DNA from: Hericium rajendrae
Lineage: Eukaryota > Basidiomycota > Agaricomycetes > Russulales > Hericiaceae
Assembly (NCBI GenBank): GCA_033439255.1
Contig: CM065881.1
Location: 1,550,001 to 1,614,000 of the forward strand
Length of the DNA: 64,000 nucleotides
Reading direction: 5' to 3'
The notes under the pieces are model-generated. The model did not search any database. It worked only from the letters and a program-made list of their open reading frames with translations, and was not told the DNA's origin. Below, one piece after another: positions 40,512-61,960 of this stretch. Position numbers and translations under genes: made by a program. Position 1 is the stretch's first letter; every line of letters begins with the position of its first letter.

Positions 40512-40631
40512 AGCATTCTACTGCATTGCCAATCAGCAGACAAATCATCGAGTTGACAGGATGTGCAAGAGTCAGCAGCCATGTCATTGCTTATGGGTTG
40601 ACATCTGAGAAAAACACCAGAGGTATATTGC

Positions 40632-40856
40632 ACTATGTAGTCTACATAGTTCTAATAGGGCCATAGCAGTCCCCTTTTCTTCATAGCCATCTCATAGTAG
40701 CAAGATAATCTACATAGGGCTACATAGCTACCATAGGACAAGGTAGTAGCTATGGTAGTTATCATAGCTATCATAGCACAGAGTGTAAGCTATCATAGCT
40801 ACTATAGCTACCATAGTATAAGATAGCTATGTAAGCTATGTTAGCTATATGATATA
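40632..40856. repeat. CATAG/CTATGATAG-rich block A
   Basis: Dense degenerate repeats of CATAG, GCTATGATAG and their complements, about 220 bp. Similar blocks occur at 46891-47093 and 59992-60210, two of the three beside a hairpin MITE. Confidence 0.7.
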
Positions 40857-41038
40857 TCTTTACTGTCATATTATATCCAGTTATTTAGGCTTCTCTCTAT
40901 TAGAACTCAAAACATCGAAAATTTGAAAGCATTATATTAAAAACAATATTTCATTGCAATACATTAATACAAATTACAAGTGACTACAAAGCTCCAATAT
41001 ACTACAACAGATAGCAACTTATAATCAACTCAAGCTAG

Positions 41039-41110
41039 GTAAGATAAAATACAAGATAAGATAAGATAAAAGATAAGATAAAAGAACATAAGCTAAGATA
41101 AGATAAGACT
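41039..41110. repeat. GATAA simple repeat
   Basis: Imperfect tandem AAGATAAGATAA array inside AT-rich DNA, upstream of the copy-A divergent promoter. Confidence 0.85.
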
Positions 41111-41277
41111 TATCTCAAAGATCAGAAAAAGTGAAAATATGATCTAAACATAGGTTAATAACTTAGATCAAGATAAAACATATATATAAAACATAAAACA
41201 TACTCAAGAAAATAAAAAGCAAAAATATGAAGTCTACAAAGAACATTAAGATTAGTGGACAAGAAAACAATATAGCA

Positions 41278-41386
41278 ACTTACCGAACATGAGAAGGTCC
41301 AAGTAAAGAGGAGAGAGGAACGAAAGACAGAAGATGGTGGTAGTAGGGAAGAGAGAGAGAAAGCGAGTCGCACATGCCTTATATAG
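41278..41386 (-). promoter_or_regulatory. Minus-strand TATA promoter and first exon, module copy A
   Basis: On the minus strand CTATATAAGG (41386-41377) is followed by a pyrimidine-rich leader and then ATGTTCG joined directly to a GTAAGT donor (41283-41278). The same order and spacing (TATA to ATG 96 nt here, 98 nt there) recur at 60605-60716. A conserved protein downstream could not be found, so this is a promoter plus a tiny first exon of unknown transcript. Confidence 0.6.
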
Positions 41387-41787
41387 ACGTGGCGATCAGA
41401 GCATCAAATGTAGCTTGCTGAGACCGGGCCGGGCATTGCACCAGAGGCTGGCCATTAGATTCCATTAAATGGATTGCAATGCCTCCGAGCATATCGCACA
41501 GTAGGTATATGGGTAGCTCATTCATTGTACTAGTATCTACTTTTTATATCTCTTGCCTTTTTAAAAAAATTAAACCAAATTTATTTGATTTGTTGGAGTG
41601 CAAACCGCCAGGCGCATGAGTCGAGTGCTGTGGCTTCAACACTCGACGCAACTTCCTCTCTTCAGCTCTCTCCTTGTCCCCTCGTCTCCTTGTCCCCTCA
41701 TCTAGCCCTGTTTCTCTCCCTCCAATGCATGGTGCGGGACGTCGTTCGGAATTCAGGAGGGCAAACAAGTGTTATGAGGGCTGAAAG

Positions 41788-41833
41788 GTAAGTAAAAATT
41801 TACTTGTTTCATCGTCTTTTCGTACTAATAAAG
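41788..41833 (+). other. Plus-strand intron of module copy A
   Basis: 46 nt from GTAAGTAAAA to TAATAAAG with a TACTAAT branch point 6 nt before the acceptor, typical of fungal introns. The matching 47-nt intron at 61125-61171 has the same donor and branch point. It is directly followed by a hairpin (41833-41865, GCGAGTATCG.../...CGATACTTGC, 14 of 16 pairs). Confidence 0.6.
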
Positions 41834-42328
41834 CGAGTATCGCTTGTTGAACGAGCGATACTTGCATTTGCTTTCTCACAACCCCACGCACCACACCCCT
41901 ATTGCCTTCGACACCCCGTGCTAATATCCACGAGCCCGCTGTGGCCCCCATCTCCTGACAACGCTGTCTGCATCTGCGTTATCGTGTCCCATTGCCACGG
42001 CAATGAGGCATGACTACGTTGCTCGCCTGGCCTCCTGCCGCCCTTGCATCCACTCAAACACCTCTGAACGCCCTCAACAGGTCCTTGCAAACCCACCACC
42101 TCACCAGCTCCATGCCTGAGCACCTCCGTGCCATCGACAACACATTTGCGGCCACGATGCATGGCTGTGCATGCACACGGCCATGCACGCCCACCCGCGG
42201 CCTTGCCAGCATGCAAGGACACAGGGCCATGCATGGTGCGAAGGCCTGTGCGAGGCTCTGAGTCCCCAGCCTGCGTGCGCATGCCCGTGGCGACACCAGT
42301 CCCAGCTATGAAATTATATTATGTACCA

Positions 42329-42403
42329 GCAACTTGCCTGAAGTGTATTACAAAAACCCTGGCAGTTGCTGCCCAGAGCCTTGCCATGTACATTATAATT
42401 CAC
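42329..42403 (+). repeat. Inverted repeat arm 1 (75-nt core)
   Basis: Matches the reverse complement of 45939-46013 at 66 of 75 positions without gaps; all nine differences are transitions, most of them C-to-T or G-to-A at CpG of the other arm. The similarity continues weakly outward on the left (cgtggcgacaccagtccc against cacgaggtgtcccagtc). Confidence 0.9.
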
Positions 42404-42445
42404 TCGTATTATAATCTATGTCGGGGCCGCTTACCGGGCCGTACA

Positions 42446-42553
42446 CTACGCACTGCTGCACGCTTAGTGTGGCTACGCACTGTCGCACGCTTAGCGCGGC
42501 TACGCACTGCCGCACGCTTAGCGCAGCTATGCACTGCCGCACGCTTAGCACAG
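42446..42553. repeat. 27-nt tandem array, four units
   Basis: Units begin at 42446, 42473, 42500 and 42527, pattern ctacgcactgccgcacgctt plus seven more bases. The period is a multiple of three. Confidence 0.95.
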
Positions 42554-43749
42554 CTACTCGCTCGGCACCATGCTCACTCTGCCTCGGCACTGTCCACTGC
42601 CCTGTGTGCTTCCCGCCTTGGCTACATGCCCACTGCCTCCCGCCCCGCCCGACCTCGGCTACGCGAGCGCTTGGCTACACGCTCGCTTGCACGTCTCGCC
42701 CTCAGCTACATGCCTGGGCCTGCTCCCCACCGCTGCTCGCTCGCATGTCCCACCCTTGGCTACGTGCCTGGGCCTGCTCCCCGCCGCCGCTTGCTCTCCG
42801 CCGTGCATGCTTGGCCTCCCGCCTCGGCTACACACCTGTGCGCCTCCTGCCATCAGCCCCTCAGCTATGCGACTGCGTGCACCTCCTGCCGCCACCATTC
42901 GTCCCACAGTGCCTCTGGCACCATTGCCGTGGCGCACACCATCAGCGCTGCTGGTGCTGCTGCCGTCGTCGCTGCTACGTCACTAGCATGCACAGATGTG
43001 GGCAGTAGTCTCGCGCACTGCTACTGGGGCCCATGAGTGGTTGCTGTGCATGGCGCGTGGCTGCTGTGCATGGCGCGCTATTGCTATGGCATCGAGTGCG
43101 GGTGGCGACAGCGTGTGCTGCTGCAGCGTGTCACTGTTGGGGTGAAACACATCGTGTGCGGGCCCCGGCGTGCGTTGACCGATACTCAGGGGTGCAGGGG
43201 GCTGCGTGGCAGCAATACGAGGGGCATGGGGGAGGTGGACACATACAGCAGGTATGCTGGTGGTCGGCACACGCGTCTTGGTGTCTTGGTGCTGGGTGCT
43301 GGGTGGGGCACGCGCGCGTGCACAGGTGTCAGGCACGCATTGCACACGTGTCAGGTGTGTGGATTTGGGTCTTATGCGGGTGCTTGCACGTTCGAAGCAT
43401 GTTGAGCGCGCTTGTGTGTGTGAATCCGGCACTCGTAGAAGGGGGCAGAGAGCTGCTGGAAGCCGTGGGCGTGTGGTCGAGGGCCCGGGATGGCGCCGGA
43501 TGTGCGTGATGGCTAGGAAAAGGGGAGCAAGCAGATAGGGAGGCGAGACACATGATGGGTGCAGAGCTACGCATCAGCGTGAAGAGGAGGAGAGGGCACA
43601 GGACAGGGAGGGTGTGCAGGTGCAGAGAGAGAGGGACGAGCCACGTACCAGCTGTGACGCAGCTCGGCAATCGCCAAACGTCAGTGGCTGAAGGCTGAGA
43701 TGACCGACGTTCGAGGACAGGTGTGCGCACGCACGAGTTTGGGGCCATT

Positions 43750-44600
43750 CTGGCCAGGTATTGAGGTACAAATGCATAGCTACTGTAGTCAATAACGTAT
43801 ATATGAAATTTCGCACAAATATGAAGGCATTTCGAGCTAGAACGACAGAATTATACTAACCCTACTGTAACCCTAGATAGTATGTCTTGAGATGCAGGCT
43901 TTATCACTGAGAACAATACTTATCTCACTGATCGAAATGTTTATATACTTAGTATACAATGTATATACAAAGACTCAAATTTTTTTGACTCCATTTCAGA
44001 GCTTGAGATCCGAAATACGTCTAAAAACATAGTCCATGGAGCGAAAAATCATCTATTTGACTAGATCCTAGAGATACAGCCACTCACAAAATATAATAAA
44101 GTCATAATATGCTCCACAGATATGCTACAATGTATTTATATAACCCGATACAATGTGCGAGGGAGATATGCTGCACAATTGCAGCTCGAATCTTGTGCCC
44201 GGCATGCCCGAGACCTCGATTCGAACTCGACGCGTTGACAAGCGCTGTCCATTTTAGACATGCTTATCGCTGCTTCACACACAGAATGCTTTCATTCCAT
44301 TCGACTCGTACCAAATTTCGTATTTACATCCTTGCATTGTATCTCCATCTACTATATTATTTGTAGAATTGAATCCAATTTATTGGGTTTGAAAGTTCTC
44401 TTCGAAGTTTGGCCAGCCTCGTTCGGTGCCCTGTTTGGCAATTGCCGATTGGCACCACAATGCTTGTGGCTGGCACTGAGGTGGCCTGTTCTCCTCCTCC
44501 TCTCATCAAGCAGGGACGACGTAGGGCTCAATAGCCCACAAATTTGTAAGTATTTCATTTTCAGTCTGTTATGTACTCGTGTCACTAGCTCCCTCGCGCG
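43750..44600. other. AT-rich centre of the inverted structure, with a third intron-like signal
   Basis: AT-rich spacer between two GC-rich arms. At 44369-44400 it carries an AATTGAATCCAATTTATT motif like the one about 220 nt upstream of the introns in copies A and B, and at 44546 a GTAAGTATTTC donor. It lacks the minus-strand TATA/ATGTTCG part, so it may be a partial third copy of the module. Confidence 0.45.
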
Positions 44601-45800
44601 CTGACGTGGCACGACAGGCCGCACCATGACACCCCTCCACCTCGCCTCCACCTCGCCTCCACCTTGCCTCCCCATGCTCGCAAATGTGTGCCCGACGTCC
44701 CCACCACACTCGTGCGTAATGACATGCGCTGCGCACTCGCACCCACCCTTTCCCGCACGCATACCGCCGTTGCATGCCAGGAGCATCCGTGCCGTGTCCG
44801 CGTGCTCCAGCGTCACATGCACATACTCCAGCACGACACCGGCATGCCAGCACCCCGCACGCATGCAACAGCACCATGCCGCCATGCCAGCACCCCCCAG
44901 GCTGCACCCAGGCTGCCGCCTGCACGTAACAGCCCTAGATCTGCGTGCCCAGCACCCCGCGTGCACGCAACAGCACCACGTCACTGCACCAGCACCCCGC
45001 GTGCACGCAACAGCACCAAGCTGCCATGCCAGCACCCCCCAGCCCACATCCAGCTCGCCGCCTGCACGTAACAGCCCCGGATCTGCGCGCCCAGCACCAC
45101 ACCGGCATGCCAGAACCCCATGTCCTGCGCGCTCCAGCGCCGTGGCCCGCGCATCCCAGCACCATCCCCATGAGGCCATGTGCCATGCCCCGCACCACCA
45201 ACGTGCCATGCCCCACGCTTCCGTGCCCGTGTGTCCCAATCCTGCGCACTTCAACGGCGAGCTTCCATGCCCCAGCACTGTCCCCATTCCAGCACCGTGC
45301 CCCGCGCCGCTGTGCCCACGCGTCTCAACCCTATGCCCCACCCGCAGCAGCAACAGGCCCACGCGTAGCCGCACGCTGTGCCCATGTGGGGCCAGCGGGG
45401 CACGGCACGGGCGGATGCGCGGCCAGGCAGTGGATGGTGCATGCAGGGTGGAGCGCGTGCCAGCGGCAAGTGAGCAGGCAGCACCCATGCCGATACCCCG
45501 ATCGCCCAGCGGCATGCATGCTTTGCAGCGAGTAGTGTGTGCCTCATGCGTGCATAGCCACGGTGCGAGAGCGGGAATGGCATGCCTGGGCGCAGTGGGT
45601 GGTGGGAACTGGGCAGGACGATAGGCGCCGGCAAGCGCACGGAAAAGCACCAGCGAGCGTGAGGGGAGCACTGGCGAGCGCGAGGGAAGCACCGGCGAGC
45701 GCGAGGGGAGCACCGGTGAGTGCGAGGGAAGCGCCAGTGAGCAGAAGGGAAGCGCCGGTGAGCAGGAGCACCAGCATACCCATAGCCGAGCGGTGAGCGC
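44600..45800. repeat. GC-rich minisatellite stretch, right arm
   Basis: GC-rich with recurrent phrases such as acgcaacagcacca and ccagcaccccgc between 44,830 and 45,080. Frames are open on both strands (453 codons minus at 44352-45713 is the longest), again low complexity, so no gene is called. It contains the 21-nt array at 45646-45770. Confidence 0.55.
45646..45770. repeat. 21-nt tandem array, six units
   Basis: Units start at 45646, 45667, 45688, 45709, 45730 and 45751, consensus agcaccggcgagcgcgaggg plus one base. Confidence 0.95.
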
Positions 45801-45821
45801 ATCCTGAACAGTAGTGTCAGC

Positions 45822-45846
45822 AGCCGAGATCCTTACGATCTCGGCT
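45822..45846. other. Perfect 10-bp hairpin
   Basis: AGCCGAGATC, loop CTTAC, GATCTCGGCT. It stands at the junction between the GC-rich right arm and an AT-rich segment, as the hairpins of the module copies stand at AT/GC junctions. Confidence 0.8.
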
Positions 45847-45938
45847 GGTATGTTTTTTTATGCAATGCTATATGTTTTTCGTGGCCCCTGGGCTATCCCA
45901 GGTGCCGCTGTGCTGCATTATAATGTGGCTTAAGCGGT

Positions 45939-46013
45939 GTGAATTGTAATGTGCGTGGCAAGGCCCCGGGCAGCAACTGCCGGGGTTTTTGTAATACGCT
46001 TTGGGCAAGTTGC
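45939..46013 (-). repeat. Inverted repeat arm 2 (75-nt core)
   Basis: Partner of 42329-42403; keeps CpG at most positions where arm 1 has TpG or CpA. Confidence 0.9.
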
Positions 46014-46039
46014 CTTATATAATGTATTTCAGTGACTGG

Positions 46040-46760
46040 GACACCTCGTGGCAACCTGTGCATGCATTCTCGCATGCGAGTCCGGGGCTCCACGAGTGCG
46101 CACACAACCGCGCACGGCACACATGCCTGCAGGAGGCCCCGGCTATGTGACTACACCCTTGCATGCTCAGACGATGTGGGTGCATCTGCACCAGCTCCCA
46201 CATGCGAGCACGAGCACAGCCATGTCAGGCCCCCACCACCATAGTCATGACAGCCCCCCGCCACCATGCATGACCCGCGCACCTCGTGCACCAATGTCTT
46301 GCTCCGCACGTGGCCCCCTGTATGACTGCCTCACCCGCGCACGTACACGGCCTCATACGACCATGTCAGCTCGTGCACGGCCCTTCGCATGACCTTCTGT
46401 GGTTGCCTGCACAGAGTGAGCAGCTCACTCCACGCACGGCCATGACAAGCTCGCGCACGGCCATGGCAAGCTCGCGCACAGCCATGGCAAGCTCGTGTGC
46501 ACCCGCATAAAGCTCGTATGACCATGCCAGCTCACATGCGGCCATGCGCGACTGCGCCAGCTCACGCATGGTCCCATGTACGGCCACAACGTGCCGCACA
46601 TGGCCGCGCAAGCTCGCACGTGACCATGCTCGATCTGCGTCCCCTGCCCCGCCTGCTACTCATGTACGCGATCACCCGCCCGCCCACAGCATCCCAGATG
46701 ATGCGTGCATGATCGTGTGGCATCACCAGTGCATGCATGCATGCACATAGATGGTGACGA
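46040..46760. repeat. GC-rich minisatellite stretch, outer right
   Basis: Similar to the sequence left of arm 1, rich in CATGC words. Holds a 21-nt array (46447, 46468, 46489; unit aagctcgcgcacggccatgg plus one base). No gene called. Confidence 0.6.
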
Positions 46761-46890
46761 GCAATGTATGTGAGGGCATGAGGTCCACTCAGCACCTTTT
46801 CTCACTAGTCTCTTAGTTCTAGTGGTCCCTTTGTCATAGTTACCTTTGAATACAATATGATTTTGATTCAATGTCTTATGTGCCTATCTG

Positions 46891-47093
46891 GGTTATGATA
46901 GTGGCTGGAGTAGCCATAGTACCTATAGTCTGGCTAAGGAAGTATGATAGTCCTATGTATGTGACACCCCTAGTTATAGAGGCTATGTCACCCTATGTAT
47001 TTAACACTTCAAGCTATGGAGGCTATCATAGGCCCCATAGCTCCATATAGCTGAATAGCTCAACTTGATAGCCCCTATAGCTCACTGATAGCA
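46891..47093. repeat. CATAG-rich block C
   Basis: Same word usage as blocks at 40632-40856 and 59992-60210, with repeated 'gaggctatg' and 'ccctatgta' phrases. Confidence 0.6.
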
Positions 47094-47689
47094 CTCATAA
47101 CAGGACTTGCTGCTATATAAAAATCCTTTTTCTCAGATGGAGCATGCATGTACAGTGGATCGTGCATAGGTTGGTAATGACATGTGCAGGGATCAGTGAT
47201 GTGCATGGGTTGACAGAAAGCTTGCAGTTCTGCATGCATGTGCAGGTTGACATCAAAAACCTTGACAATTTTCTGATGAGTCTGACAGTTTTCAACCCTA
47301 TCTGCAGCTAAGATAGGCGACAGCCAAAAACAACCCCTGTTATGTAAGCGAGTCAGACCCTGGATGGCGATGACAACTCCTCCATGCTCACTCACCCAAT
47401 CATCAATCTACCTTCTGGGATGCATACATAGGATGCGTGGGCACAGATGCCTGAAAGAATTTTGGGTAAAAATGAAGAACTGGGGGTGGTATAAGGTCTA
47501 CAATCCACACCAACTGAACTTTTTCCTATAATGCTTTTCTGTGCTTTCCGATGCTCCTGGTATGTTTTTCAAAATTTGAGTCAACACGATTTGGCGGGTC
47601 ACATGACTTATGTAATCCATCACATGACATTATCATAACCAATTTGGGTTAGATCAGTAGATAAGATAAACTGAATGCTCGCACGCAAC

Positions 47690-48080
47690 AATGCACCGCA
47701 GCGCGGCCATGCATAGCGCGTCTGCACCATCGCACACAAAGTCGCTGAGCACTATATCAATGACCTCCGTGACACCGCAGCCTGTGAGATCCTTCGCGCC
47801 CACCCGCGCTCAGCATCGCCCAGATCTCGGGGTCCGTGCGGGTGCGGCCTGGTTTGCAGAGATGATGGTGCTCCAATCGAAACTTAGCATGGACATTGCA
47901 CACATGCTCAGGATGATGGCTTTGTGGCCCTTGCCCGGCTCGACGTGCAGGTGGCCGCAGCACTCCAGCCAGGTGTATGCACCGGACGTAGTGCACGCGA
48001 AATGCTCCCGCTCAGACCGGGGTACGAGCCTCCCCCTGAAATGGGTTGGGAGGCTGTTGCTGAAATTTTTTGCAAGCCTG
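47690..48080 (-). pseudogene. Frameshifted coding relic of unknown family
   Basis: GC-rich islet in AT-rich DNA. On the minus strand one frame reads HFACTTSGAYTWLECCGHLH and another RTRTDPEIWAMLSAG; after a one-base shift near 47,810 the sense continues AKDLTGCGVTEVIDIVLSDF and GADALCMAALRC to a stop. The switch keeps a protein-like composition, so this looks like a decayed exon of a mobile element or lost gene. I do not recognise the family. Confidence 0.45.
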
Positions 48081-48089
48081 TGAGTCCTA

Positions 48090-49137
48090 ATTGATGAATG
48101 CATGGACAGTATACTATTTCATCAACCCTCAGCCCTACATCTGGGGCATTTTTAGACAAAAGCTCAGTGAGGAAAGTGTCAGGCCTCCCAAATTTGGCGG
48201 GTTCTCATGCTACAATTACATAATGCCCAGGGGGGTCATTTTTGACTGTCATCTATCTTACTGCAGAGTCTGATCTGTCTAAAGCCACTTTTCAAATGAT
48301 TATATCTGATTGAGCTTATATATTTGAGAGTCAACATCTATTGTTAGATATAGCAGTCACTCATCTCTAACTGTATATCATAATAGAATTTCTGATATTT
48401 GAAATTTTTATAAATCTGAGAGCATTTGTGAATCTGCTCCAAAGAAGCTGGTGAGGATTATTATGATGTGATGCATGTGATGAGCTAGTGCTCGAGTCAG
48501 GAGGGAGCATCCTTGTCTGAGAGGTTCAGAGAACTGAAAAGCAAGAGTAATAGAGACTGAGTGCTAACAAAGTTAATCTCCAGGTCAGCCTACCTACACA
48601 CAGAAGGCAACCTTTCTACACATGACTAGGAAGCTAGAGAGTCCTATGTCCCCTGTTTAATTGATGAAAGACTCTGAACAATGGAGCACAAGGCAGAGGT
48701 GTGTCAGAAAGAGAGAAACCCTAAAAAGGGAGAGTGCCTGAAGGTGAGAAGGAGTGTATATACTCGAGCCAAGTAACAGGTGAGAAGAAGAGATATTCAT
48801 ATTACAAAGCAAGCCCAGCATCATATCTGGGCTGACTCCTAACCCTAGGTACATGCATAGCATAAGGCTAGGAAATTCTACAAAAGTAATGCTGCCCCAT
48901 TACAGATAGCCAGTCAGAAAGCATCTTCAGATAGAAACTATATACATTCAAAGCTATAAACTTCAGGCTACTTCCTCTCACTATAAATCTTACACTACAT
49001 GCATTTGCATGAGTCCTGAGATTGACTTCTCCTTGACATCCTATATCTCATTTAAGTCATAAAGTATGGGTGCAAACGGGTGCAAAAAGTACATGCAAAT
49101 AGGAGCCAAAAAATCGAACAAGTCATTGAAAAACAGA
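48090..49137. other. AT-rich right end of island I
   Basis: About 1 kb without a gene or recognisable repeat, ending at the transcription-factor stop codon. Confidence 0.5.
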
Positions 49138-52100
49138 TTACACATGATTGAACTGAGCCACAAGGCTCTGCCAAGCAGCATTTGGATCATTACTAGAGCC
49201 CATATCTCCAATATTCTGAGCCGGCTGCTGAGGCCCAGCAAAATATGATGTTGCTCGAAGGGAGGCGGCATAATCGAAGTTGGGAACAGAGAATTGATCG
49301 GTTACGATTCCTGTCATCGACGACATTCCAGGATGTGTGTTCACGTAACCGAGTTCTGCAGCGTGAGATCCTTGCCATTGTTCCGGAGGCATGGTATATG
49401 ATGTATAATCCTGCGGAAGTGATTGATAACCGTATCCCTGCCACTCTTGCTGTAATTCGGTACTAGAATAGCCCGGAGATGCAGAAGAAAATACAGGCGT
49501 AGGATGTTGATGCTGATATGAGGGAGGCGTGGGCATATGGCTCAAATGAGGGGAATTGTGCGGACTCGAGGAGGGAAGGGATGCAGCTTTCGCAGGGGAG
49601 GATGGTGTAGTCGATGCCTTCCGAGGCACAAGACGCGTCTTTCCTCCCAAGGTAGCCATCTCGTCGTCTTCACGCTTAACATCACGGAACTCGGGTGGAG
49701 ACAGACGGGAAGGTGATAGCATGGGATTCTGTCCCTGAAGGTCGGACATAGAAGCAATTGCTCGTTCTCTCTGCTTCCGCAAGACAGGCTACGTAACTCC
49801 AATAAGCTCGGCTGTATAATGAAATGGCATCAATACTTACGAGAACTTTGACCGCACGAGGATTCTCCGACACCTGCTCAAACAGGCGCAAGGCTGAGTC
49901 GAGATGGGATAGGGCAGACCGGGCCAGAGCCATTGCCGGACATTTAATGGGTATGGACCCTAGCACAATCTGGAAGGCCCTTTAGCTTCGGATACTCCAA
50001 ATACTGTAGTATTGACTCACCGCGCACGAGAAGACATGCGTAAAAAGAAACCACATGCGCTCAGTCAGGGCTGGTTGCTGCGAGAACAAACTTTTGATTA
50101 AACCGACAAAAGAGCAGGCACTGTTATATGCTGCCAGCACTGATGGTGCATATTTACTACCCAGAGGATCGTCTGAGTTATCTTCTATGGCACGAGCGAA
50201 GAAGCCACGGTGCATATAGAAAAGTGCTTTCAGACACGATTAGCATGGACACAATAACCTACATGGAAGAATGAAGACGCACTGATCTCCCTGATAGCGA
50301 AGCCAACGTAACGCTGCATTGTCAGAGGGGCGGGCGGAGGCTCAACTTCTCCCATTGGACCTCCGAAACCAGGGACTTGTAATGAGGGAGGAGTGTAGAA
50401 GTTGCGAACTTTCTTGTCTAACTCTTGGATAACCTTATAACTTGGTGTACGGGCACCAAATGCTTGATCGTGAACAATACTCAGGCATTGAGATGAGAAC
50501 CGGTGCTTCCAGAGGGCAACTGAAGCAGAAGTATAGGGTAAGTTCCCAATTCCAAAGTGGCCAAGATATACGAACAAATCATCTCTTCTTCGCCCTGTTC
50601 GTTCTTGAACGATTCGTGTGCCATTTGACAATCCATGTGAAGCAAAGAAAAAGATGGCGGCCTTCCATATGTCAGGCTCTAGACCCCCATCAGTACTAAC
50701 GCTACGACATCGTCCGAAACCGCACTAACCTGCCAGGAGTCATATGTGTATATCTCCCACATCAACGACCTACGTCTATGAGTTTCTTCGCTGCTGAGAT
50801 TCCATTTCCCACTATCTCTGTCTATGTTGCTTGTAAGCCCATGTAGTAAACAGACATCTAGACACATACGGAGTCCACACTGTGACAGGGTGAGCTCCGT
50901 GACACAGATCGACCAGCATGATGAGCAACTCACGCTGTGCGCCAACTTTACAACTAATCCCATCAACGCCCAACGGGGACCATCAATGTCAGAAAGGAAC
51001 ATAAAATGCGACATAAGAACCTGACCAACGACAGAAACATTGAGGACAAATGTTGTGGATATAGGGACAGCAGGACAACACACCAGTGCTTGAATTGCAG
51101 TAATTGATTGCTCCTCAAAAATGGAATCGACTGCCAAAGATGCTCGGCCTAGTTGGAAGTAGTGATTAGCATCGTACGACTGAGGGGGCCGTTCCAAGTC
51201 AAGTAAAGCTCCAATGGCCAAAACCATGAAAAGCACCGCCAATCGATGGGAAGCAATAGGATCGTGCTCTGGCAGGACAACTTGAGGATCGTATATGCGC
51301 AAGAAGACTGTATCGTGGAACTCTTGTTGATCGATGGGTGTGTACCTGCACCACGTCGATATTAAAAGAAAGAAAACAACCCCTCAGTTATTTAGACGTA
51401 CATCCATGCAGCATGCCTGAAATATATGTCTGCAAACTGTCGAGCTTTCGCTGAATCTGGAAGAAGGCCGATTAAAGTGCCCCGGATGCTCTCTGCAGAC
51501 TTCCCTGCGCTCGCAGCGAGAGGGAACGCGTGAGCAAGCCATGGAATATCCGCAGGAAGAGGAAGTTCTGGGCTGGCTAGTTCTTCTTCATCGCTACCTT
51601 CTTCATTCTGCCGGAATCGGGATGAGCCAATGAAACTTAAGGATATGTCAGTGATGTCTGATCCTGACCTTGAGAAGATACTTGAATCAAACAATCAGTT
51701 GACGGAAGGAGACAAATGCTTTCATAGAACATACCCAAGAATTTGCTGTTTGACCGAAGAAGTTTGTTCTACCTTTCTCTGAAATCGAACTGACAGTCGT
51801 TGAGCAAAACTTCAGACTCGCTATGCTCGTATCTTACAGTGATCCGACAGCGTCAATTGCTTCCGCTGTTTCCACCTCTGGTGCTGGTGGCAACTCATTC
51901 CTTGCTTCACGTTCTAATGGCCGCTTAATTTGCAATAGATCATCACTCAAAAGAGGATGTCTCTCGGATGAGCGAAAAGAATAGGATTCTGCCAGAGCAT
52001 CTTCCAGCTGTCTGACGCGGCTGGATAGTTGACCGATCTTGTCATGTAGTACTTCAGTGTTGGCAAGTATGAACCTGCGGGAAGCTGAGCAATCCAGTGA

Positions 52101-52495
52101 GACCGAAAGAACAAGCAAACTTGCCTATTTCCCTTTCCCGTTGTCAGCGAGCCTGCGAGCAATCTCAGCGGGTATCCACGATAATGGTTCAAGTGAGTTA
52201 GCTCACCGTCAGGACAGATCGCTGCGCAGCCTTTCTTTACACAACTGGTACAAGGAAAGACACGACTGCATCTACGCTGGATGAGTGATGAGATCTATGA
52301 TGTTAACGTCTGACAACCAACCTCAGCTTGAGTCTGAAACACAACGAAAGTCAGAAAACAAGTAGTGAATTCCATAAGTACACAAACTACAGACCTTCGA
52401 CATTCGGCACAGGATAGTGCTGCACTGCGGCGACGCTGCTTTGGAGAAAGAGACGCCGGAGAGGATGGATCATTGGAAGATAGAAAAGAAGCCAT
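49138..52495 (-). CDS. Zn2Cys6 fungal transcription factor
   Basis: Multi-exon gene of about 850 residues. Start MASFLSSNDPSSPASLSPKQ. The binuclear zinc cluster is assembled from small exons: ALSCAECRR, then LKLRCSR with VFPCTSCVKKGCAAICPDG, giving the CxxC...C...CxxC...C pattern. A short coiled coil follows (LHDKIGQLSSRVRQLEDALA), as is usual for dimerising regulators. The middle is the fungal-specific regulatory domain: LAVLFMVLAIGALLDLE, YFQLGRASLAVDSIFEEQS, LMGLVVKLAHSVGLHRDSGK and RRRSLMWEIYTYDSWQSLTY with GRPPSF. The C-terminus is Ser/Pro/Gln-rich, probably an activation region, ending WQSLVAQFNHV. Acts in the nucleus on CGG-type sites; the target pathway is not predictable. Its stop codon lies at the edge of island I. 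Confidence 0.9.
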
Positions 52496-53088
52496 GTCTC
52501 GAAAAGAGTCGGAAAGGCGGTCTGGGTGGAAGGGGCACCGAGACGCGAGAGACGATCGGGGATGCGGGAAACAAACAGAGGGCTACAAAGCGGAGTGAAG
52601 ACAGTCACTTATAGATAGCCAACCCAATGCCAATCTTGTAGCTTGCGATGTGCGATCAGACACACAAAATATTTGTTCTTCACTCCACAAGCGAGGCACA
52701 GCCAAAAAAAAAAAAAGCAGCAACTGCAGAACTTTCCGCGGGGCTAGGTGCTAATGCATCATCCCCAGCGCTCGCAACACAAGGTCTGGCACTGAAGGGC
52801 ACTGATCGCTCGAGCAGATCTCCTATCTAGATACCCGAGCTCAGTTGATGATGCAATGCACGGAAGTCGACATTTGTAACAATAAGCTCCTTGATGTAGG
52901 TGCGTATGTATGTACATTATTGCATGACAGAGACTTACCATTCCACTGCTCCCAGAGTTCATGCAGATACGATCGTCCAATTTATTTAAACTGCAAAACG
53001 GGTATCAATGGGTGACAAGTGAAGAAAAATCATCATCCTAGTGTCGAAAGAACCGCCCAAAATCATCCATTTATCATCCATCAACTCG
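52496..53088. other. Intergenic region between transcription factor and coiled-coil gene
   Basis: 593 bp holding the transcription-factor promoter and the coiled-coil gene 3' region. A 13-nt A run occurs near 52,705. Nothing else recognised. Confidence 0.4.
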
Positions 53089-54511
53089 CTACGCTACCAC
53101 TCTGATATCGCTCTGATCCATGCCCTTCATCGCATTCGTTGTCCTCTCCACATCAGAAGACGAAGTATTGGCGAGGTCCGGAAATAATCCCGTAGCTGGT
53201 TTCTCAGACGCAGGGCTCACTGGCTCTACAGAATCGGCTACGGAGGACGCGTCTGATCCACTTTGCAAGGGCTCCCGAACCTGTGTGTGCTGTTGTCGTG
53301 CGACAAAGAAACCACCGAACTTCTTCGTCAGTGTTTCCGAGGAGCTGGGGGTTGAACCGGTATGAACAGAGGAAGAGGACAGTCCCATCTCCGCACCACT
53401 GCCCGCACTCCGTCCATGCTCAGCCCGCCATAACTTCAGGCCCCATAGTCCTGTCATGGAACCGCTTTGAGTGCTTTTGCAATCCGTGTCCGGAGCTTGT
53501 GGAGTGGTCGGTGATTGCATATCATCTGCACGAGCCACGCCAACGTTGTTCTCCGCAATGAACTCTCGCAGGGCTCTGACGCAAGTCTCAGAAGCCTCGC
53601 GGGCTTCTATTGCTTCTGTGAGTTCATTTCGTACTTCCTCCAAAGCATCCTTCAGCGTCCTGACCTCGCGTTGCAAAGATTCTATCTTCCCTGCCTGCAT
53701 CTTCGCCGAGCTATCAATATGTTCAGATGGTGCCTTTCGGCCAAATAAACCAGATAGACGTTTTGAAGGAACACTAGGAGATCCGCCCAGGTCCGGAAAG
53801 GATGCGAATTGAGATGGAGAAACGGGCGGGACTGAATGATCTCCTTGTGCGACACTTGACCAAGGACCGCTGTCGGAGACAGAAGAGATACGCCTGTGAC
53901 CGTGAGTAGAGAGGGGCACTCCTGACCCAGTGAGTGGTGTGAAGGACGCTCGCTTGCTGGAAGAAGGTCCAAATGGAACGGAAGCTCTAGACAAATCCAA
54001 TGACATGTTGGATGCTTGGCTCGTGCGACGGCTCTGAGTCTGTAGACGCATGAGACCGCGTCTGATGTAGGGCTAAGCTTGAGGGCTGTTTCGTAAAATA
54101 GACAGCAGGAGATCCTCACCTGCTTTCTTCAACCTTACTCCGAAGCATCGATATCGACTCTTCATCGTCTCCAATCTTCTTCTTTGCCTCAGACAGTTCC
54201 TCCTGCATGATTGTCCGTGTTTCCATGACCTGACGCAGTTCACTGCTTAACTTCTGCTCCCTGACTTGACATGCATCCAAAGCAGTCTGCAATCCATCAC
54301 GGTCCCTCGTCGTATCAGCTAGGTTCATCCGAAGAGTTGTCACAATAGCGGCGAGAACGTGAGGATCGAGTGATTGTGGGCGTGCATCCTGAGGAGATGG
54401 TAATGAGTCATTATCAAGTTGACGTTCCAGTTCAAGGGTGAGATCGAAGGAGTGGGGACGGTTTGGATCGTGACCGGGTAATTCATGACTTCCCTCAGCG
54501 TCGCCGGGCAT
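53089..54511 (-). CDS. Coiled-coil protein of unknown function
   Basis: Two exons (54120-54511 and 53089-54061) with a 58-nt intron, 454 residues. No family recognised. Seen: an acidic N-terminus, a coiled coil at about residues 55-130 (QVREQKLSSELRQVMETRTI, EELSEAKKKIGDDEESI), a Ser/Pro-rich middle with KRLSGLFGRKAP, a second coiled coil at about 245-290 (KIESLQREVRTLKDALEEVR) and a C-terminal region with TKKFGGFFVARQQ and WGLKLWRAE. The two short aromatic-basic motifs (LSGLFGRK, KFGGFF) are similar in layout and could be peptide docking sites. Start at 54511 is the first ATG in frame. Similar fungal proteins are seen near polarity scaffolds, but that is only a guess. Divergent from the proteasome gene, 237 bp apart. 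Confidence 0.75.
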
Positions 54512-54748
54512 TATGTGGATGAAAGGGACAGAAGAAGGCAAACAATGTGTACTGTGTAGTATATGGTTACCGAATGCCCCGGTGGCAGCTGGTTACAACA
54601 TTATGTATGCAAGCGCTGGCGGTTTAAGCTGCCAAGGTGCGTGGTCACGTTTAGATTACATAATAGAAATAACAGTAGTAGTGGTAGGAGGACGCGCGTC
54701 GACGCGCATCACTTTCCTTGGTTTCAATCCACCACATTCTGCATCCTT

Positions 54749-55989
54749 ATGTCGAGGTCTTACGATCGCGGTACGGAGGTCTACTTTGGATTTATAGCCT
54801 ATCTTGATGCTTACTCTCTCATAGCCCTTACTGTCTTCTCCCCTGATGGGCATCTATTTCAGGTTCGTCTCGTACTTTGGCCTTTATTCTCAACGAAGAC
54901 ACATTGTTCGCGATGGCAGGTGGAGTATGCGTTAGAAGCTGTGCGAAAAGGGACGTGTGCGGTATGCCCAGTCTTCTATCTGACAATTCACCTGCCTACA
55001 CGTATAATAGGTTGGCGTGCGGGGTCAAGACGTTGTAGTATTGGGAGTTGAGAAGAAGTCAGTTCTTCAACTGCAGGACCCGCGCACAGTGCGTAAGGTA
55101 GTCATGTTAGATGACCATGTGTGTCTTGCGTTCGCGGGTGCGTCATCTCTAACACTTGAAACGAAGGCTCAAATGAATGATGTGCCACAGGCTTAACGGC
55201 CGATGGCCGAGTTTTGATTGATAAAGCGCGGACAGAGTGTCAGAGCCATCGACTCACTGTTGAAGACCCTGTTACTGTTGAATATATCACCAGACACATA
55301 GCTGGCATTCAGCAAGTGAATCACCAACGTGCTTTCATGTTATTCCCAACTTACCCACATTTCCACAGCGTTATACCCAGTCTGGCGGTGTCCGTCCCTT
55401 CGGGATTTCTACACTCATCATCGGGTTTGATCCGAACGACACGATACCAAAGCTTTATCAGACGGAACCGAGTGGTATTTATAGCGAATGGAAAGTAAGG
55501 AGAGGACATATCGTTCAAGAATAGTCACAGCTGACCACCTGGTTTAAGGCAAATGCAATTGGACGGTCATCGAAGACTGTCCGCGAATTTCTTGAAAAGA
55601 ACTATAAGGACGGGATGACTCGCGATGAAAGTGTTAAGCTCACGGTCAAGAGCCTGCTGGAGGTAGTCCAAACAGGTGCTAAGAATATCGAAATCAGCAT
55701 TATGGAGAGTTATGGCCACATTACGGTGCGTGACATCATAAATTGTATCCAGCGAAACGTGAACAGACTTGCACAGAACCTGGACTTGCCCCAAATCGAA
55801 GCAATCGTACAAGAGATCGAACGCGAGAAAGAAGCAGGTAAGTTGGAATGGAGGGTCTTTTGGCTTCCCAGCACTGACGGCCATATTTCTTCAGAGGCTG
55901 AGAGGAAACGCTCGAGATTGGCGGCCACTGCTGCTGGCCAGGCTGCAATGACAAGCCGTGCAGATACATCAGGGGCATCTGGACAGTAA
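54749..55989 (+). CDS. PRE6: 20S proteasome subunit alpha4 (PSMA7/Pre6)
   Basis: About 255 residues in seven or more exons. Start MSRSYDR, then after an intron [13 protein letters not shown] and [14 protein letters not shown]: the YDR...[15 protein letters not shown] signature of alpha subunits. The alpha4-specific stretch [58 protein letters not shown] and [20 protein letters not shown] matches PSMA7 rather than other alphas. Then [40 protein letters not shown] and [10 protein letters not shown]. The end has [17 protein letters not shown] and a basic-acidic tail. As an alpha subunit it has no catalytic Thr and forms the outer ring gate of the core particle. Exon ends were set by frame; the splice before NLDLPQIEA is the least certain. 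Confidence 0.95.
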
Positions 55990-56700
55990 ACATCTCACTT
56001 TGACTGTACAACTTTCAGTCAAACGCTGGGACCGCTATTGATCATCTGCAAATAATAGAAGGATTTTTGTAATTTACGTGCATGATGGCTTAAATAAGAG
56101 ATGGCGTGTGCAAGCAGTATCAAAGGATACTTCTGTTCGTTCATGCACGTACCTACAGCCAGTTTACTCGCGATTAAAATATTTTAATCTAGGCTAATAG
56201 TCCTAGCGTCCAGACTGCCTGAGCTCCGCTCACTCGCAGCCAAGGGGCGTCCGGAATCCTGAGCGCCCAAAAACGACTTCCCAGTGGTATGACATGAAAA
56301 TCGAGGACCCCGAAGGGTAACGCCACAATTTGCAGTATCCTCGCCTTGCTCAGTGAATCGCTCACAGAGACTCGTTCGTCTTCGAACAAAGTGGTGGAAA
56401 TCGATGACTAGCGTGACCGATTACATGCTTAGAGTACACATGAATATTTTCGCCATTTGTCCTGTCATCATTGCCTGACAATCTAAATAGCATTCCAACA
56501 TTTCGTGCTGCGCCGCCACCCGCCGACGCGAACGTGCCGTGCTCAAGCGCCCAGGCTGGCGCTCACTTTGCGCTCACTGCAAGCCCACGACGCGTCTCTG
56601 ACTAAGATTTTTTTCCGTTTATAGTCATGGTAGCGGTTTCCTGGGGTCCTTCACGGAGGGGTAGTCATTTTAGTAAATTCTGCATCAGTAAAACGGTCGG
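55990..56700. other. Proteasome 3' flank and left edge of island II
   Basis: About 0.7 kb with no gene. A change of base composition towards repeats begins near 56,640. Confidence 0.4.
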
Positions 56701-56703
56701 GAG

Positions 56704-56885
56704 GGCTCAAGAGCTCCAAGAGAGCTCAAGCACTTGGGGCTACTTGAAGCTCATTGAAGGCTCTTGCAAGCTATCGTGAGATTTGCCTCTTTCCTAAAGA
56801 GTCTGATGTTGTTCGGTTTAGATTTCATCCTAGTTTGGACATGGCAGTCTCTCTTTTCAAGAGCTTGCAAGAGATCCTCAAGATA
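56704..56885. repeat. CAAGAGC-rich block, left
   Basis: Repeats of CTCAAGAGC, CTTGCAAG and variants. A similar block lies at 59425-59625, on the far side of the MITE at 58983, giving a mirror-like layout. Confidence 0.65.
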
Positions 56886-56910
56886 TTAACTAAACTAGGT
56901 ATTTGTCGAC

Positions 56911-57012
56911 TGCATCAGGAAACTCTTCACTTTCCTGACTTTACTGTTGTAGGTCTGATGTCACTGTTCGAGGCCTGATGTTACTGTTTTTAGACTGTTT
57001 TCAGACACAAGT
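56911..57012. mobile_element. Hairpin MITE, single arm
   Basis: Starts gcatcaggaaactcttcact and continues through ttactgttgtaggtctgatg to tttagactgttttcagacac, matching the reverse complement of the right arm of copy A. The second arm is absent, so this is a truncated copy or one end of a larger element. Confidence 0.75.
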
Positions 57013-57095
57013 AGGGACCGACACGAGTCAGAGTCACGTGCAGGTCAACACAGGTAAACCTGCGAGATTTACCCACGGGTTCCTGACCCATGGAT

Positions 57096-57135
57096 CTGGA
57101 TCACCCGGTGGCAGAAACCTGTCCGGATCCAGGTC
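57096..57135. repeat. 40-nt direct repeat, left copy
   Basis: ctggatcacccggtggcaga...ggatccaggtca, repeated with few changes at 58495-58534 in the same orientation. Both are embedded in dense 'gacctgcgag' and 'gacccgc' words. Confidence 0.75.
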
Positions 57136-57199
57136 AAGATTTTACTGAAATCCATTGACCTGCGAGTAACCTGTAGTGACCCGCAACTATTTGGCAAAG

Positions 57200-58490
57200 A
57201 GATAGTAATTAAATGAACTCGTTGACAACTTCTCATAGATCTTGTCACTGAGTTCAGTATTTCTTCTTTGGAATCCATCTTCACATTCAGCATCGGTGCA
57301 CTACAACATCGTAACTAAGTTTATACCAACTGTACGAACTCGCTTGGTGCCCTCACCACACTTACTTAGCGTCGTCTGGCAGCCATGGGCTTGCAGGGGC
57401 CGTGCACGAGCGAGCAGCGAGGTGACACATTGGACACAGTTCTGTCATGGGCTCCTTCAGCACAGGACATACCGCGCCACCAGCACCACCGTTGTGAAAT
57501 ACCACGAGCACCTCGTCGCCGTGCATGCACTGCACAAGCTCGGGCGCTCTGGACGTGGTTCTGTGCAGGCACCCGAGGCACAGGCAGCACAGCAGCGGGC
57601 ACATGGTGAGGAACGCAGGGTCTGCGGCGAAGGCCGTCGAGGTCAGTGGCACGAGCGCGCAACATGAGGAGCACGTCCACGAGCACGCTCGCACTGAGGC
57701 GCAACGTGTGCAGCATGGGCAGCAGGAGCACACGTGTGAGCCACACCGAGGCATCGCCGGGCGTGTCCACGATGTCGCGTGTGCAGCTGGGAGAATGCTC
57801 GACGATGTCGAGGAGATGCACGGTGGAGCACAGGAAGCGTGAGCATGAGGCCCGCGAGGCGGAGCCAGGGCAACAGCAGGGCAATCTCGGCGGGACGGGT
57901 GGGGGTAATTGCACACTGTTGAAAGGTGGAGAGACACGCGGGCCCGGACATGGTATTGAAGTCGTTGCATCGGGCGGGTGCTCAAGTAGGTGGGCACGAC
58001 ACCACATGAGTGCTGAACGAATGGTAGTCAAGCCTTGTTGCTACAGCAACAAGGCCTGACGGTTCGCTGTTGGCAGTTGCTAGCCTTCCACGTGCTACAC
58101 CGGGGCCATGTGTACTCTTAGGGGTGGAGTGGGGGCCGAGGTGCAGCATTAACGTGTCGACGAGGGTATGGTGGGTGCTCAGATGATTGTCGAACATGCG
58201 GGTGACGAGTAAGAGCGCGAATGACGTGCGAGAGGTGAGAAAAAAGTCGAAGGACGGTTGATAAATGATAAAAATCAAGTCTCGCTCGTATCGAGTGAGA
58301 CTCACAAGATTAGTACAGAACAATGAGATAAAAGTCTTTTTGACTCACCCGAAATCCCTCTGGCACCTACAAAGCCCTCCTTACTGTCAACTTGAGGAAA
58401 GATCGCGAGAGAAGAGGATGGTAAGGCGTAGTATGTAGAGAGACCGACTGACCTGCGAGTGACCCGCGATGTCACAGGTACTCGACCCGC
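57200..58490. repeat. GC-rich stretch between the 40-nt direct repeats
   Basis: GC-rich centre (57,360-58,080) with overlapping open frames on both strands (221 codons minus at 57366-58031), flanked by less GC-rich DNA. No family recognised. The flanking direct repeats could be LTR-like or target remnants. Confidence 0.45.
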
Positions 58491-58494
58491 GGCT

Positions 58495-58534
58495 CCGGAT
58501 CACCTGGTGGCTGAAACTCCGCGGATCCAGGTCA
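58495..58534. repeat. 40-nt direct repeat, right copy
   Basis: Partner of 57096-57135, 1.4 kb apart. Confidence 0.75.
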
Positions 58535-58639
58535 GCCCTGGTGCCACATTGAATACCCGCGGGTTCGGATCCGGGTCACCTGCGAGTGCACTCGTGTCGA
58601 ACCCTAGGGAGTGCAAGAGAGTGGTAGCAGTGGGTGTAC

Positions 58640-58933
58640 TCAGTCATGACATGTCGTTCTCCATTGTGCAGGCACTGAGCAGTGCAGGCAACAGCACGAG
58701 CAGGCCCTGTTCCACCATGCATGGTGCTTCATGTGGATCTCAAGTGCAGGATGCATCTGGTACCCATCACCCGCCATGTTCTTCTCCACTATCTGGATGT
58801 GCATGAGCAGCTGTTGCAGGTGCAGTGACTGCACATGCAGTGCAGCATACACCTCAAGGTTTGTAGGCAACCTTGCACCGGGCGAGGGTGGGACATAATG
58901 TGTGGTGCAACACAATAAGGCTGTGAGAGGCAC
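58640..58933 (-). pseudogene. Coding relic of unknown family
   Basis: One minus-strand frame reads smoothly for about 60 codons (HYVPPSPGARLPTNLEVYAA, LHLQQLLMHIQIVEKNMAG) while the others are broken. It looks like a piece of a decayed protein-coding element; no family recognised. Confidence 0.3.
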
Positions 58934-58982
58934 ACATGCTCACTGTACCTCCTACAGCACATCTCATGTCACTGCACAGCCA

Positions 58983-59177
58983 AAACTTCTCACTTTCCTG
59001 GCTTTACTGTTATAGGTCTGATGTCACTGTTTTGGGCCTGATATTACTGTTTTCAGACTGCTTTCAGACATCTGGATCTGACATGTGTCTGAAAACAGTC
59101 TGAAAACAGTAACATCAGGCTCAAAACAGTGACACCAGACCTACAACAGTAAAGCCAGAAAAGTGAGAAGTTTTCTG
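58983..59177. mobile_element. Long-hairpin MITE, copy B
   Basis: Same two-arm structure and centre (CATCTGGATCTGACATGTGT) as the copy at 40317-40511, again with 20-nt internal direct repeats. Left end is eroded (caaaacttctcac in place of tcaggaaacttctcac). Confidence 0.85.
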
Positions 59178-59424
59178 ATGCACCCATTGCCTATCTTGCA
59201 GTATGTGCAGAAGTTCTACAAGTCTGCATTTTTTGGCATGCTCTGCGGCACACATGAGGCTGAGCGCATACATGTGTGGCTACTCAATGCTGATGTGGGG
59301 CTGGTGGAGACCTGGACACATAGGGTAGTCTTCACTTTCAAGTTTTGCTTTCTTCTGTAGTTGTATATATTGTAGTCTATATCATGGAGAATACAATGCT
59401 GTTTTCAAACTAAATATCATCTCA

Positions 59425-59625
59425 AGTGCCTTCAAGAGCCCTCAAGAGCCCTCAAGAGCCTGCAACTGCTGCATTAGGATGCTCTTCCATATTTGGAAAG
59501 GTGTCTTGACAGCTCTTGCAAGCTCTTGAAAGGCACGTTCAAGCTTGATTGTGACTATCCAGAACATAAGAGTCCTTGATCGGTCTTGAGCTCTTGAGCC
59601 TCTTGCAAGATGCTTCAAGGACTTG
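59425..59625. repeat. CAAGAGC-rich block, right
   Basis: Contains three consecutive copies of caagagccct and many CTCTTGCAAG words. Partner of the block at 56704-56885. Confidence 0.75.
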
Positions 59626-59991
59626 TCCATTCTACTGATGTGATCCTGAACACCTCTTGCTCGCAGCACTTCCTCTCCTGTGGGTGTTGGCTCTTCGTGA
59701 GCTCTCATGCCAGTGTGACATTTTTGCATCCATGCATCTTGTGCACTCTGTGATCTCATGCCTCAGTCAGCCTGAAGAGTGCTGTGCTGGTCATTCAGAG
59801 GGCTTCACCTTCTCTTCACAACCATCATGCACCTTTAGGTAAGATATCTCTTTTCCTCAATAGGCCTTCTCTTCACAACCATTGTGCACCTTCAGCATGA
59901 CAGTGAGTTTAATGCATACTTGAAATCTTTGATTTCTGTCAAGTTCCCCACTCTCCAGAAGGTCTTGTTCATCAGAAAAATTTGCAGGTCC

Positions 59992-60210
59992 TACATAGCT
60001 CTATAGATCTTATATAGAAGTCATAGGCTCATAGCACCTCCCTTTACTACATAGCTCTCATAGCCTAAAGGGAGAGCTATGGAGTGCCATGAGATGCTAT
60101 AGAGCTAAAGAGGGTGCTATGAACTACTATCATAGTTATCATAGCTAACTATGAAGCCATAATAGGATGCATAGCTATAACAATTATCAGAGCTATAATA
60201 TCTATATGTA
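59992..60210. repeat. CATAG-rich block B
   Basis: Same word usage as block A (40632-40856); lies between MITE copy B and the module promoter, as block A does. Confidence 0.7.
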
Positions 60211-60604
60211 CTATATTGGATAGGCAAACTTGACAGATCTATCCAAGCAATAGAGCCTATCAAAGCTATTCAAATTATAGCTTGACTAAATAATATATTT
60301 AGATACATTCTTTTTTAAAATGAATAATCACACATATAACAATATCAAGAGGACTGAATAAATCAGATTATATTTATCATTCTAATCTATTACAAAATCT
60401 CATAACTAACTACAAATATATATACCACTAAAACTAGAAAGATAACAAGTCAATACAAAGACTACAAAAAGCGAAAATATAACCTAGAAGTATAAGCAAT
60501 AGTTAGTAAAAGAGTAAAACTTATCAAGCTATATAACAAAAGTGTAACCTATAACAGAACAAAGATATAAGAAAAGTATGACTTAAAAAACATAAAGCAC
60601 AAGA

Positions 60605-60716
60605 ACTTACCGAACATTGTAGAAAGAAGTACAAGTTGAGAGCAAGCTCCGAGCGAAGGAAGAAGGTAGTGGTTGAAGGGAGAAAGACGACGCATGTTGT
60701 GCGAGGTTTATATAGC
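60605..60716 (-). promoter_or_regulatory. Minus-strand TATA promoter and first exon, module copy B
   Basis: CTATATAAAC (60715-60706), pyrimidine-rich leader, ATGTTCG then GTAAGT donor (60610-60605). Layout as in copy A at 41278-41386. The AT-rich DNA downstream on the minus strand has no recognisable coding exons. Confidence 0.6.
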
Positions 60717-61124
60717 TGAGCGCGGACATGCCCGGTCGGAGCCACAAATGTGGCTACCGCGCGCAGCCGTGTGTCGCGAGAAAGGCTAGGTATCTAGACT
60801 TCTTTAACTTAAGTTGCCTGTCCTTAGATGTACTGTGTAGCAGATAGTTATGTAGCTCATTAGTTACAATTTCATAAACTATCTATGCATGCTCCGTTTT
60901 TTCTGAATTTAATGCGATTTGATTTGATTTACTGAGTCTCGGAAACCATAGACTCGCATGTTCGGTGGCTGAAACACCGAATGTATGTCAAGTACTTACG
61001 AACGTCCTCGACTCTTCACTCGATATCAACCTTCAATCAGCCCAGTTCATCCTCTTCCTCATTTCCTCCCTCCCTCAACAACTCGATCACCGGTGGGAAG
61101 CGATAGCGAGCTAATGGGCAACAG

Positions 61125-61171
61125 GTAAGTAAAAAAAGCAGTTCTATGATCTTCGTACAGTACTAATTCAG
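61125..61171 (+). other. Plus-strand intron of module copy B
   Basis: 47 nt from GTAAGTAAAA to TACTAATTCAG, with the same donor and branch point as copy A. It is followed at once by a hairpin (61171-61203: GGGAGTGTCGCCC, short loop, GGGCGATGCTCCC, 11 of 13 pairs). Confidence 0.6.
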
Positions 61172-61203
61172 GGAGTGTCGCCCGTTTTATGGGCGATGCT
61201 CCC

Positions 61204-61960
61204 GTTCTTTGTCACTCCACGCCCCGGCCCCCATGTCCTACCCCTCAACGACTTCCATTCCCCGTAGCACATCGCTGCTGCCACGTTATATGCCTCCCTC
61301 CTGCCTCCTGGTGTGTGCTGCCAATGCGCACGTCCCGTCAACGTGCACACGTCTGCCAACATGCATACGCCCCGCGAGTGTGCATGTCTGCGCACGGGCC
61401 CACCAGTGCGCACGCACCTGTGCATGGCCTCGCATGCCGGCACCACGTATGGCCAGCCTCGCGTGCTGGCAACAGCGTGTGCATGGCCTCATTTGCCTAC
61501 GCACGCTGTACGGTCTCACCTGCACCCATCTGCGTGTGCTTGCCCGCGCCCGCCTGTGCGTGCATGGCCCCACCCGTGCATAATGCTGGTCATCAACGCA
61601 AGACATCATGCAGGCAGCCGTGATGTGAGGTGCACTCCCTGCCCTGCCAGTGTTCTCTGCGCTGTGCCTGCGCACTCCCTGCAGCCTCCGTGCCCTCCCT
61701 GTGGTCTCCATGCTCTCTTGTCGCCTCCACACCCTCTGCGTTGTCTCCATGGCCTTCCCATCGCCTCCACGCCCTCAGCTCGCCTCCACGCCCTTTGTGC
61801 CACCTCCACGCCCTTTGTGCCACCTCCACGCCTTCCGCACCGCCTTCCCGCTGCCTTTCCACCCTCCGCGCCACGTCCACCACCTGCGCGCTGCCTGCGC
61901 ACCCTCTGTATCACCTCCACGCCCTTCGCACGAGTCCTAGTTCCAGTCTCAATCAATAAC
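61204..61960. repeat. GC-rich minisatellite stretch of copy B
   Basis: GC-rich, CGCACG and CCACGCC words, frames open on both strands, no gene called. Contains a 20-nt array at 61781-61840 (unit cgcctccacgccctttgtgc). Confidence 0.55.

Follow-up and report, generated by a model that had tools for sequence, protein, structure and literature searches.

Non-autonomous transposons with PlavakaB-like ends in Hericium rajendrae carry a conserved non-coding cassette with predicted splice signals and a covarying hairpin

We have characterised a family of DNA transposons in the genome of Hericium rajendrae, two copies of which, A and B, lie in the window, that is, the whole stretch of 64,000 nucleotides analysed here. 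These elements are mobile units with terminal inverted repeats, and their interior carries conserved splice signals and a hairpin whose arms covary. From these features we infer that the elements are transcribed and spliced, that their promoter is used in both directions, that the hairpin acts as RNA and that a helper transposase is involved. In the reading that we prefer, and to which we give an even chance, they would be non-autonomous transposons with PlavakaB-like ends, helped by Plavaka, that contain a bidirectional promoter for two divergent spliced non-coding RNAs. We commit ourselves to the view that selection maintains the conserved cassette as a putative spliced, non-coding transcription unit. 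In the common view, non-autonomous DNA transposons are transposon ends with filler. The type of transposon is known here, and the conserved, predicted spliced non-coding cassette appears to be the new feature: within the open-access literature, the titles and opening lines of abstracts mention no non-autonomous DNA transposon with such a cassette.

Both segments from which the analysis started, and their components, are found where a sequence-only reading of the window had placed them. On the minus strand, ACTTACCGAACAT occurs at 41278 in A and at 60605 in B. TTATTTGATTTG is located at 41581 in A and GATTTGATTTG at 60916 in B, the plus donor AGGTAAGTAA at 41786 and 61123, and the branch point TACTAAT at 41823 and 61161, after which the hairpin comes in both. 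The distances from TATA box to ATG, 96 nt (A) and 98 nt (B), also held. In a shuffle check set beforehand, the local alignment of A with B scored 399, far above dinucleotide-shuffled sequences (204.6 +/- 13.6, maximum 248, n = 200; z 14). Further copies of both segments, for which that reading had asked, are present in the genome from which the window comes (46.8 Mb, 19 contigs), where the best 40 of 230 first-look candidates for segment A showed 69-100% identity and the best 40 of 125 for segment B 68-100%, the query itself and partial matches being counted. Segments A and B are the interior of larger DNA transposons. The segment of 600 bp is therefore not the unit, as had been supposed; in the copies fetched from the genome, homology takes in about 630-790 bp more on the left side of the segment and, beyond the hairpin on the right, roughly 1.0-1.7 kb; for copy A, the nested insert is left out of the count.

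The borders of the unit are inverted repeats, CATCT or CATCA on the left and AGATG or TGATG on the right, in every one of the 12 copies that were read at both ends, and the same 12 copies show an exact 2-bp target duplication, a 3-bp duplication being found in none of them. The suggestion of a shared mobile unit was thus correct. Eight of these copies end in CATCT..AGATG, two in CATCA..AGATG (the C1 copy and the second C9 copy) and two in exact CATCA..TGATG (C9 and C3). Type A borders read CATCTGAGAAA...TTTCTCAGATG, and those of a relative of copy B read CATCAGAAAAA...TTTTTCTGATG. Excluding nested inserts, the 12 elements are 2312-3735 bp long, and of 38 loci, 24 have the left-end motif where it is expected. 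One copy (C3:1368993) sits inside a Plavaka transposase gene, apparently within an intron, and an uninterrupted relative (L064) provides the empty site of this insertion, with the duplication TT. Considering the inverted ends, the 2-bp duplications and this pair of filled and empty sites, we assign the family to the DNA transposons.

In the window, copy A (40602..47139, plus strand) has the ends CATCTGAGAAAA...TTTCTCAGATG and the duplication GA, and measures 6538 bp with its nested element. Its left and right terminal inverted repeats (40602..40613 and 47128..47139, plus strand) and the CATAG-rich subterminal repeats of its left side (40633..40860, no strand assigned), which are present on the right side too, were read in the sequence. 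The leftward unit, on the minus strand, has a TATA box conserved across copies (41379..41386) and a predicted first intron of 50 nt (41234..41283) with the conserved donor CG/GTAAGT. In the rightward unit, on the plus strand, the predicted intron (41788..41837) measures 50 nt to the GAG of the hairpin arm and 46 nt to an AG at 41833, and the hairpin at the 3' splice site (41833..41865) was defined by folding and covariation. The interval 42295..46047 (no strand assigned) is missing from an 89% identical C2 copy, the junction showing an overlap of 9 bases. Its inverted ends measure about 105 bp (42299-42403 and 45939-46042, 83% identical), and its 9-bp duplication is imperfect. It is thus a nested second element outside the family, presumably MULE-like by the length of its duplication. 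It contains most of the tandem repeats and minisatellites around copy A, so that the minisatellites earlier assigned to the repeat are, beside this copy, mostly not family DNA.

Copy B (59970..61938, plus strand) starts with CATCAGAAAAA, its left end reading CATCA, and is truncated: homology to its nearest relative, in C9, stops at about 61938, and the right end is lost. The conserved minus donor with ATG (60605..60617) and the TATA box of the leftward unit (60708..60715), both on the minus strand, were located by the alignment of A with B. The predicted intron of the rightward unit (61125..61175, plus strand) is 51 nt long to the GAG and 47 nt to an AG at 61171, and the hairpin at the 3' splice site (61171..61203, plus strand) was defined by folding. 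Host genes occupy the space between the two copies, where ORFs at 49-56 kb resemble, as judged by eye, a Zn-cluster regulator and a proteasome subunit. The palindromic hairpin MITE near the copies (40318-40512, 56910-57012 and, in part, 58982-59182) had been listed with the layout of the repeat and is a separate repeat, not part of the unit. Its ends, CATCAGRAAAC and TTTTCTGATG, are similar to the ends of the family's elements.

The conservation profile of the cassette was calculated from 24 of 38 aligned copies, the other 14 being near-duplicates or interrupted (L033, L037). Mean pairwise identity per 20 columns was 0.68 at the minus donor, 0.73-0.84 in the block of TATA box and leader, 0.74 at CGATTTTATTTGATTTG, 0.70 at the plus donor, and 0.74 and 0.78 over branch point plus hairpin, and it was 0.43-0.59 in the tail and in many stretches between these peaks. 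The promoter, both 5' splice sites, the branch point and the hairpin are thus kept across diverged subfamilies. The proposal that the conserved spacing suggests function gains from these peaks, and from the covariation described below, at the level of sequence.

Signals of a predicted intron recur throughout the genome on the rightward side. The pattern of branch point plus hairpin, with at most one mismatch, gave 459 genomic matches, as against 17 for the reversed control. Of the distinct hairpin contexts, 66 extend far enough upstream, and in 58 of these a GGTRNGT donor stands no more than 62 nt away on that side (control windows, 2 of 50). The donor positions imply introns of 46-51 nt, with the spacing from branch point to hairpin preset by the search pattern. 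The acceptor that occurs throughout is a GAG within the hairpin's 5' arm, and with it the predicted introns measure 50 nt in A and 51 nt in B. The plus intron of 46 or 47 nt described before stands for A and B insofar as the earlier AG exists in both, but this AG is absent in several subfamilies. On the minus strand of the left arm, 25 copies contain 20 intron-like units (100 shuffles: 2.1, maximum 5), 66 occurrences of GTAWGT (shuffles: 18.4, maximum 31) and 29 of TTTTCGCTTTT (shuffles: 0.03, maximum 1); by the rule used, 9 of the 25, copy B included, have no such unit. The copies are related by descent, and copy counts are therefore not independent. These conserved signals are those of a spliced non-coding RNA gene, as which the cassette may be read.

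The hairpin folds at -23.6 kcal/mol in A (z -8.45) and at -27.8 kcal/mol in B (z -7.75), and the antisense strands fold too, at -15.5 and -21.2 kcal/mol. Covariation was measured on 24 aligned hairpins, near-duplicates excluded, against 500 shuffles. In this set 98.1% of the cells are paired, compared with 90.5% in shuffles; 25 cells are changed on both sides, compared with 6.7, a count that no shuffle reached; and a covariation score of 0.307 stands against 0.157. Two weaker measures gave 5 pairs with a double change (shuffled 2.6; 17 of 500 as high) and 15 further pair types (shuffled 15.4; 401 of 500 as high). When the partners are slid by 1-3 columns, pairing falls to 20-56%. Among 37 distinct arm pairs, G.U outnumbers A.C by 35 to 9 when cells are counted and by 12 to 6 when distinct position-types are counted (p 0.12), so that the wobble tests favour RNA in direction only. 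Of 38 imperfect stems without a tie, 26 fold more stably as the sense strand (p 0.017 before any correction, including one for relatedness).

A symmetric subfamily has a predicted intron plus hairpin on both strands. The hairpin pattern led to 20 new loci, four of which (L070, L072, L073 and L083) showed, by eye, a second branch point plus hairpin on the opposite strand, and the strict pattern confirmed the opposite-strand unit in one of three extended loci (L088, which is the L072 locus). The hairpin on both strands follows the direction of the transcript, and this favours the RNA reading. The element of L087, in C1, spans 399-4133 with the duplication TT and matches its own reverse complement at 60% identity over 752-3710, a self-similarity that may in part be due to its low-complexity tails. 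A second palindrome, GGGAACTGTTTTGCTGCAGCAAAACAGTTCCC with variants, lies at both outer ends and in the middle of this element (748-790, 2213-2255 and 3675-3712) and is present in L033 as well.

On the coding side, the plus-strand ORFs of the tail are long (up to 480 aa in L001-L038), yet they have no codon signature, and we rejected a protein-coding tail. In six pairs of copies the substitutions are scattered over all codon positions; of the 63 indels in the tails, 17 have a length divisible by three, which is under the one third expected by chance. Seven long ORFs from seven copies gave no Pfam match. ATGTTYG is found in just 12 of the 31 copies with the minus donor read; ATGTTCG is thus not a conserved start, as had been thought, and a conserved minus-strand peptide was also rejected. 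An ORF of 1424 residues beside the C7 copy (L042) reads, by eye, as a Copia retrotransposon and is outside the element. A known RNA family was rejected as well, with 0 Rfam matches at gathering score in the whole window. The GC-rich tails of L035, L022, L028, L001 and the C13 copy contain a palindrome like GTTGCCRTGGCAAC, which we take to resemble the RFX X-box.

Among known systems, PlavakaB of the CMCT clade is similar to the family. It is described (PMC12730594) with 2- or 3-bp duplications and the termini 5'-CATCA..TGATG-3'; the family shares ends of the CA..TG type starting with CATC and the 2-bp duplications, but most of its copies end in CATCT..AGATG, and the exact termini are limited to the two copies given above. 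Its genome is rich in Plavaka genes, with 132 Plavaka-domain stretches. On the other hand, the copies read carry no Plavaka gene, as also the seven ORFs without a Pfam match indicate, and have the conserved non-coding cassette with predicted splicing instead. We have therefore filed the family solely as a non-autonomous element with PlavakaB-like ends. KDZ elements (Kyakuja-Dileera-Zisupton) occur in the same genome with 172 stretches, but we rejected them as owner, since the family has 2-bp duplications where, according to PMC12730594, Zisupton has 8-bp and Kyakuja 7-bp ones. In L065, the sole KDZ locus read, matches to family loci are limited to a repeat of about 400 bp. The genome also has 46 stretches matching TET/JBP, 38 of them above the family cut-off. 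Together, these loads of Plavaka, KDZ and TET/JBP stretches point to an agaricomycete host. MITEs are short, under about 1 kb, and have no conserved interior unit. The family shares with them and with other non-autonomous TIR elements the inverted ends, the many copies and the lack of a transposase, but its length of 2.3-3.7 kb and an interior in which promoter, splice sites and hairpin are conserved place it outside the MITEs. Like retrozymes (PMC4918200) and Helenus and Ajax (PMC10886601), it would have an RNA feature, not a protein, as cargo; those are reported to be retroelements, whereas the family consists of TIR DNA transposons in which a hairpin sits where the predicted intron ends.

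Based on these results, we propose that a Plavaka transposase of the same genome probably moves the elements in trans, because their ends and duplication resemble PlavakaB and the genome has abundant Plavaka-domain stretches. The conserved bidirectional promoter would produce two divergent, spliced, non-coding RNAs, of which the rightward one would have a first intron of 46-51 nt with its 3' splice site within the foot of a stable hairpin. Most likely, the cassette keeps the element transcribed and the hairpin limits or regulates intron removal, tuning the use of the 3' splice site. A bolder version, which we offer tentatively and consider unlikely, is that the hairpin embedding the 3' splice site is an RNA switch on splicing and that the non-coding bidirectional RNA gene is the essential cargo, diversified over a long time under selection, e.g., for managing host RNA silencing or the chromatin state.

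The strongest rival, a real possibility although we doubt it, is that selection acts on an autonomous two-gene divergent master of Plavaka type, from which the non-coding copies were repeatedly derived, so that conservation and covariation would reflect the master. A promoter followed by short 5' introns does look like a gene start, and Plavaka genes abound in the genome; however, none of the loci read has the cassette followed by a transposase, and the matches listed (about 100 of 459) include, by eye, no Plavaka or KDZ gene starting with the cassette, which argues weakly against the master. If the palindrome were instead a DNA site for a dimeric protein, either a host factor or the transposase, the paired changes would track binding specificity. 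Its near-perfect symmetry, the folding of the antisense strand and the non-significant count of distinct wobble events agree with this, but the palindrome is fixed in position beside branch point and donor and, in the symmetric subfamily, follows the predicted transcript on either strand, and the excess of G.U cells and the more stable sense stems also speak for RNA; accordingly, we regard a DNA site as improbable. That the bidirectional promoter and first introns were captured from a host gene pair is hardly credible to us: a divergent promoter with an intron close to each 5' end would fit, but among the matches read, a part of the total, no donor locus lacking inverted ends was recognised, and the near-symmetric L087 element suggests that one unit was duplicated.

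Returning to the putative spliced non-coding cassette, many diverged subfamilies retain promoters, splice sites and a covarying hairpin with no detectable protein. If transcribed, they would lend themselves, as a natural series, to the question of why a transposon keeps splicing. A possible reason is that splicing signals to RNA silencing; reports from Cryptococcus that deal with RNAi and stalled spliceosomes may be compared.

Several loci show further arrangements of these elements. In L041 (C13:655000-663000), two inverted copies (772-3442 and 7552-4884) are 99.4% identical, with tails facing each other about 1.4 kb apart and differing duplications, TG and TT. L040 (C2:3910600-3919400) has several element copies inside or beside a short-unit tandem array. 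L037 and L012/L018 are interrupted between promoter and intron, apparently by the repeat of about 400 bp that is also found at L065:7220-7631. Between L010 and L013, the module from promoter to hairpin is 74-83% identical and the tail 91%, and it looks as if modules had been swapped between subfamilies.
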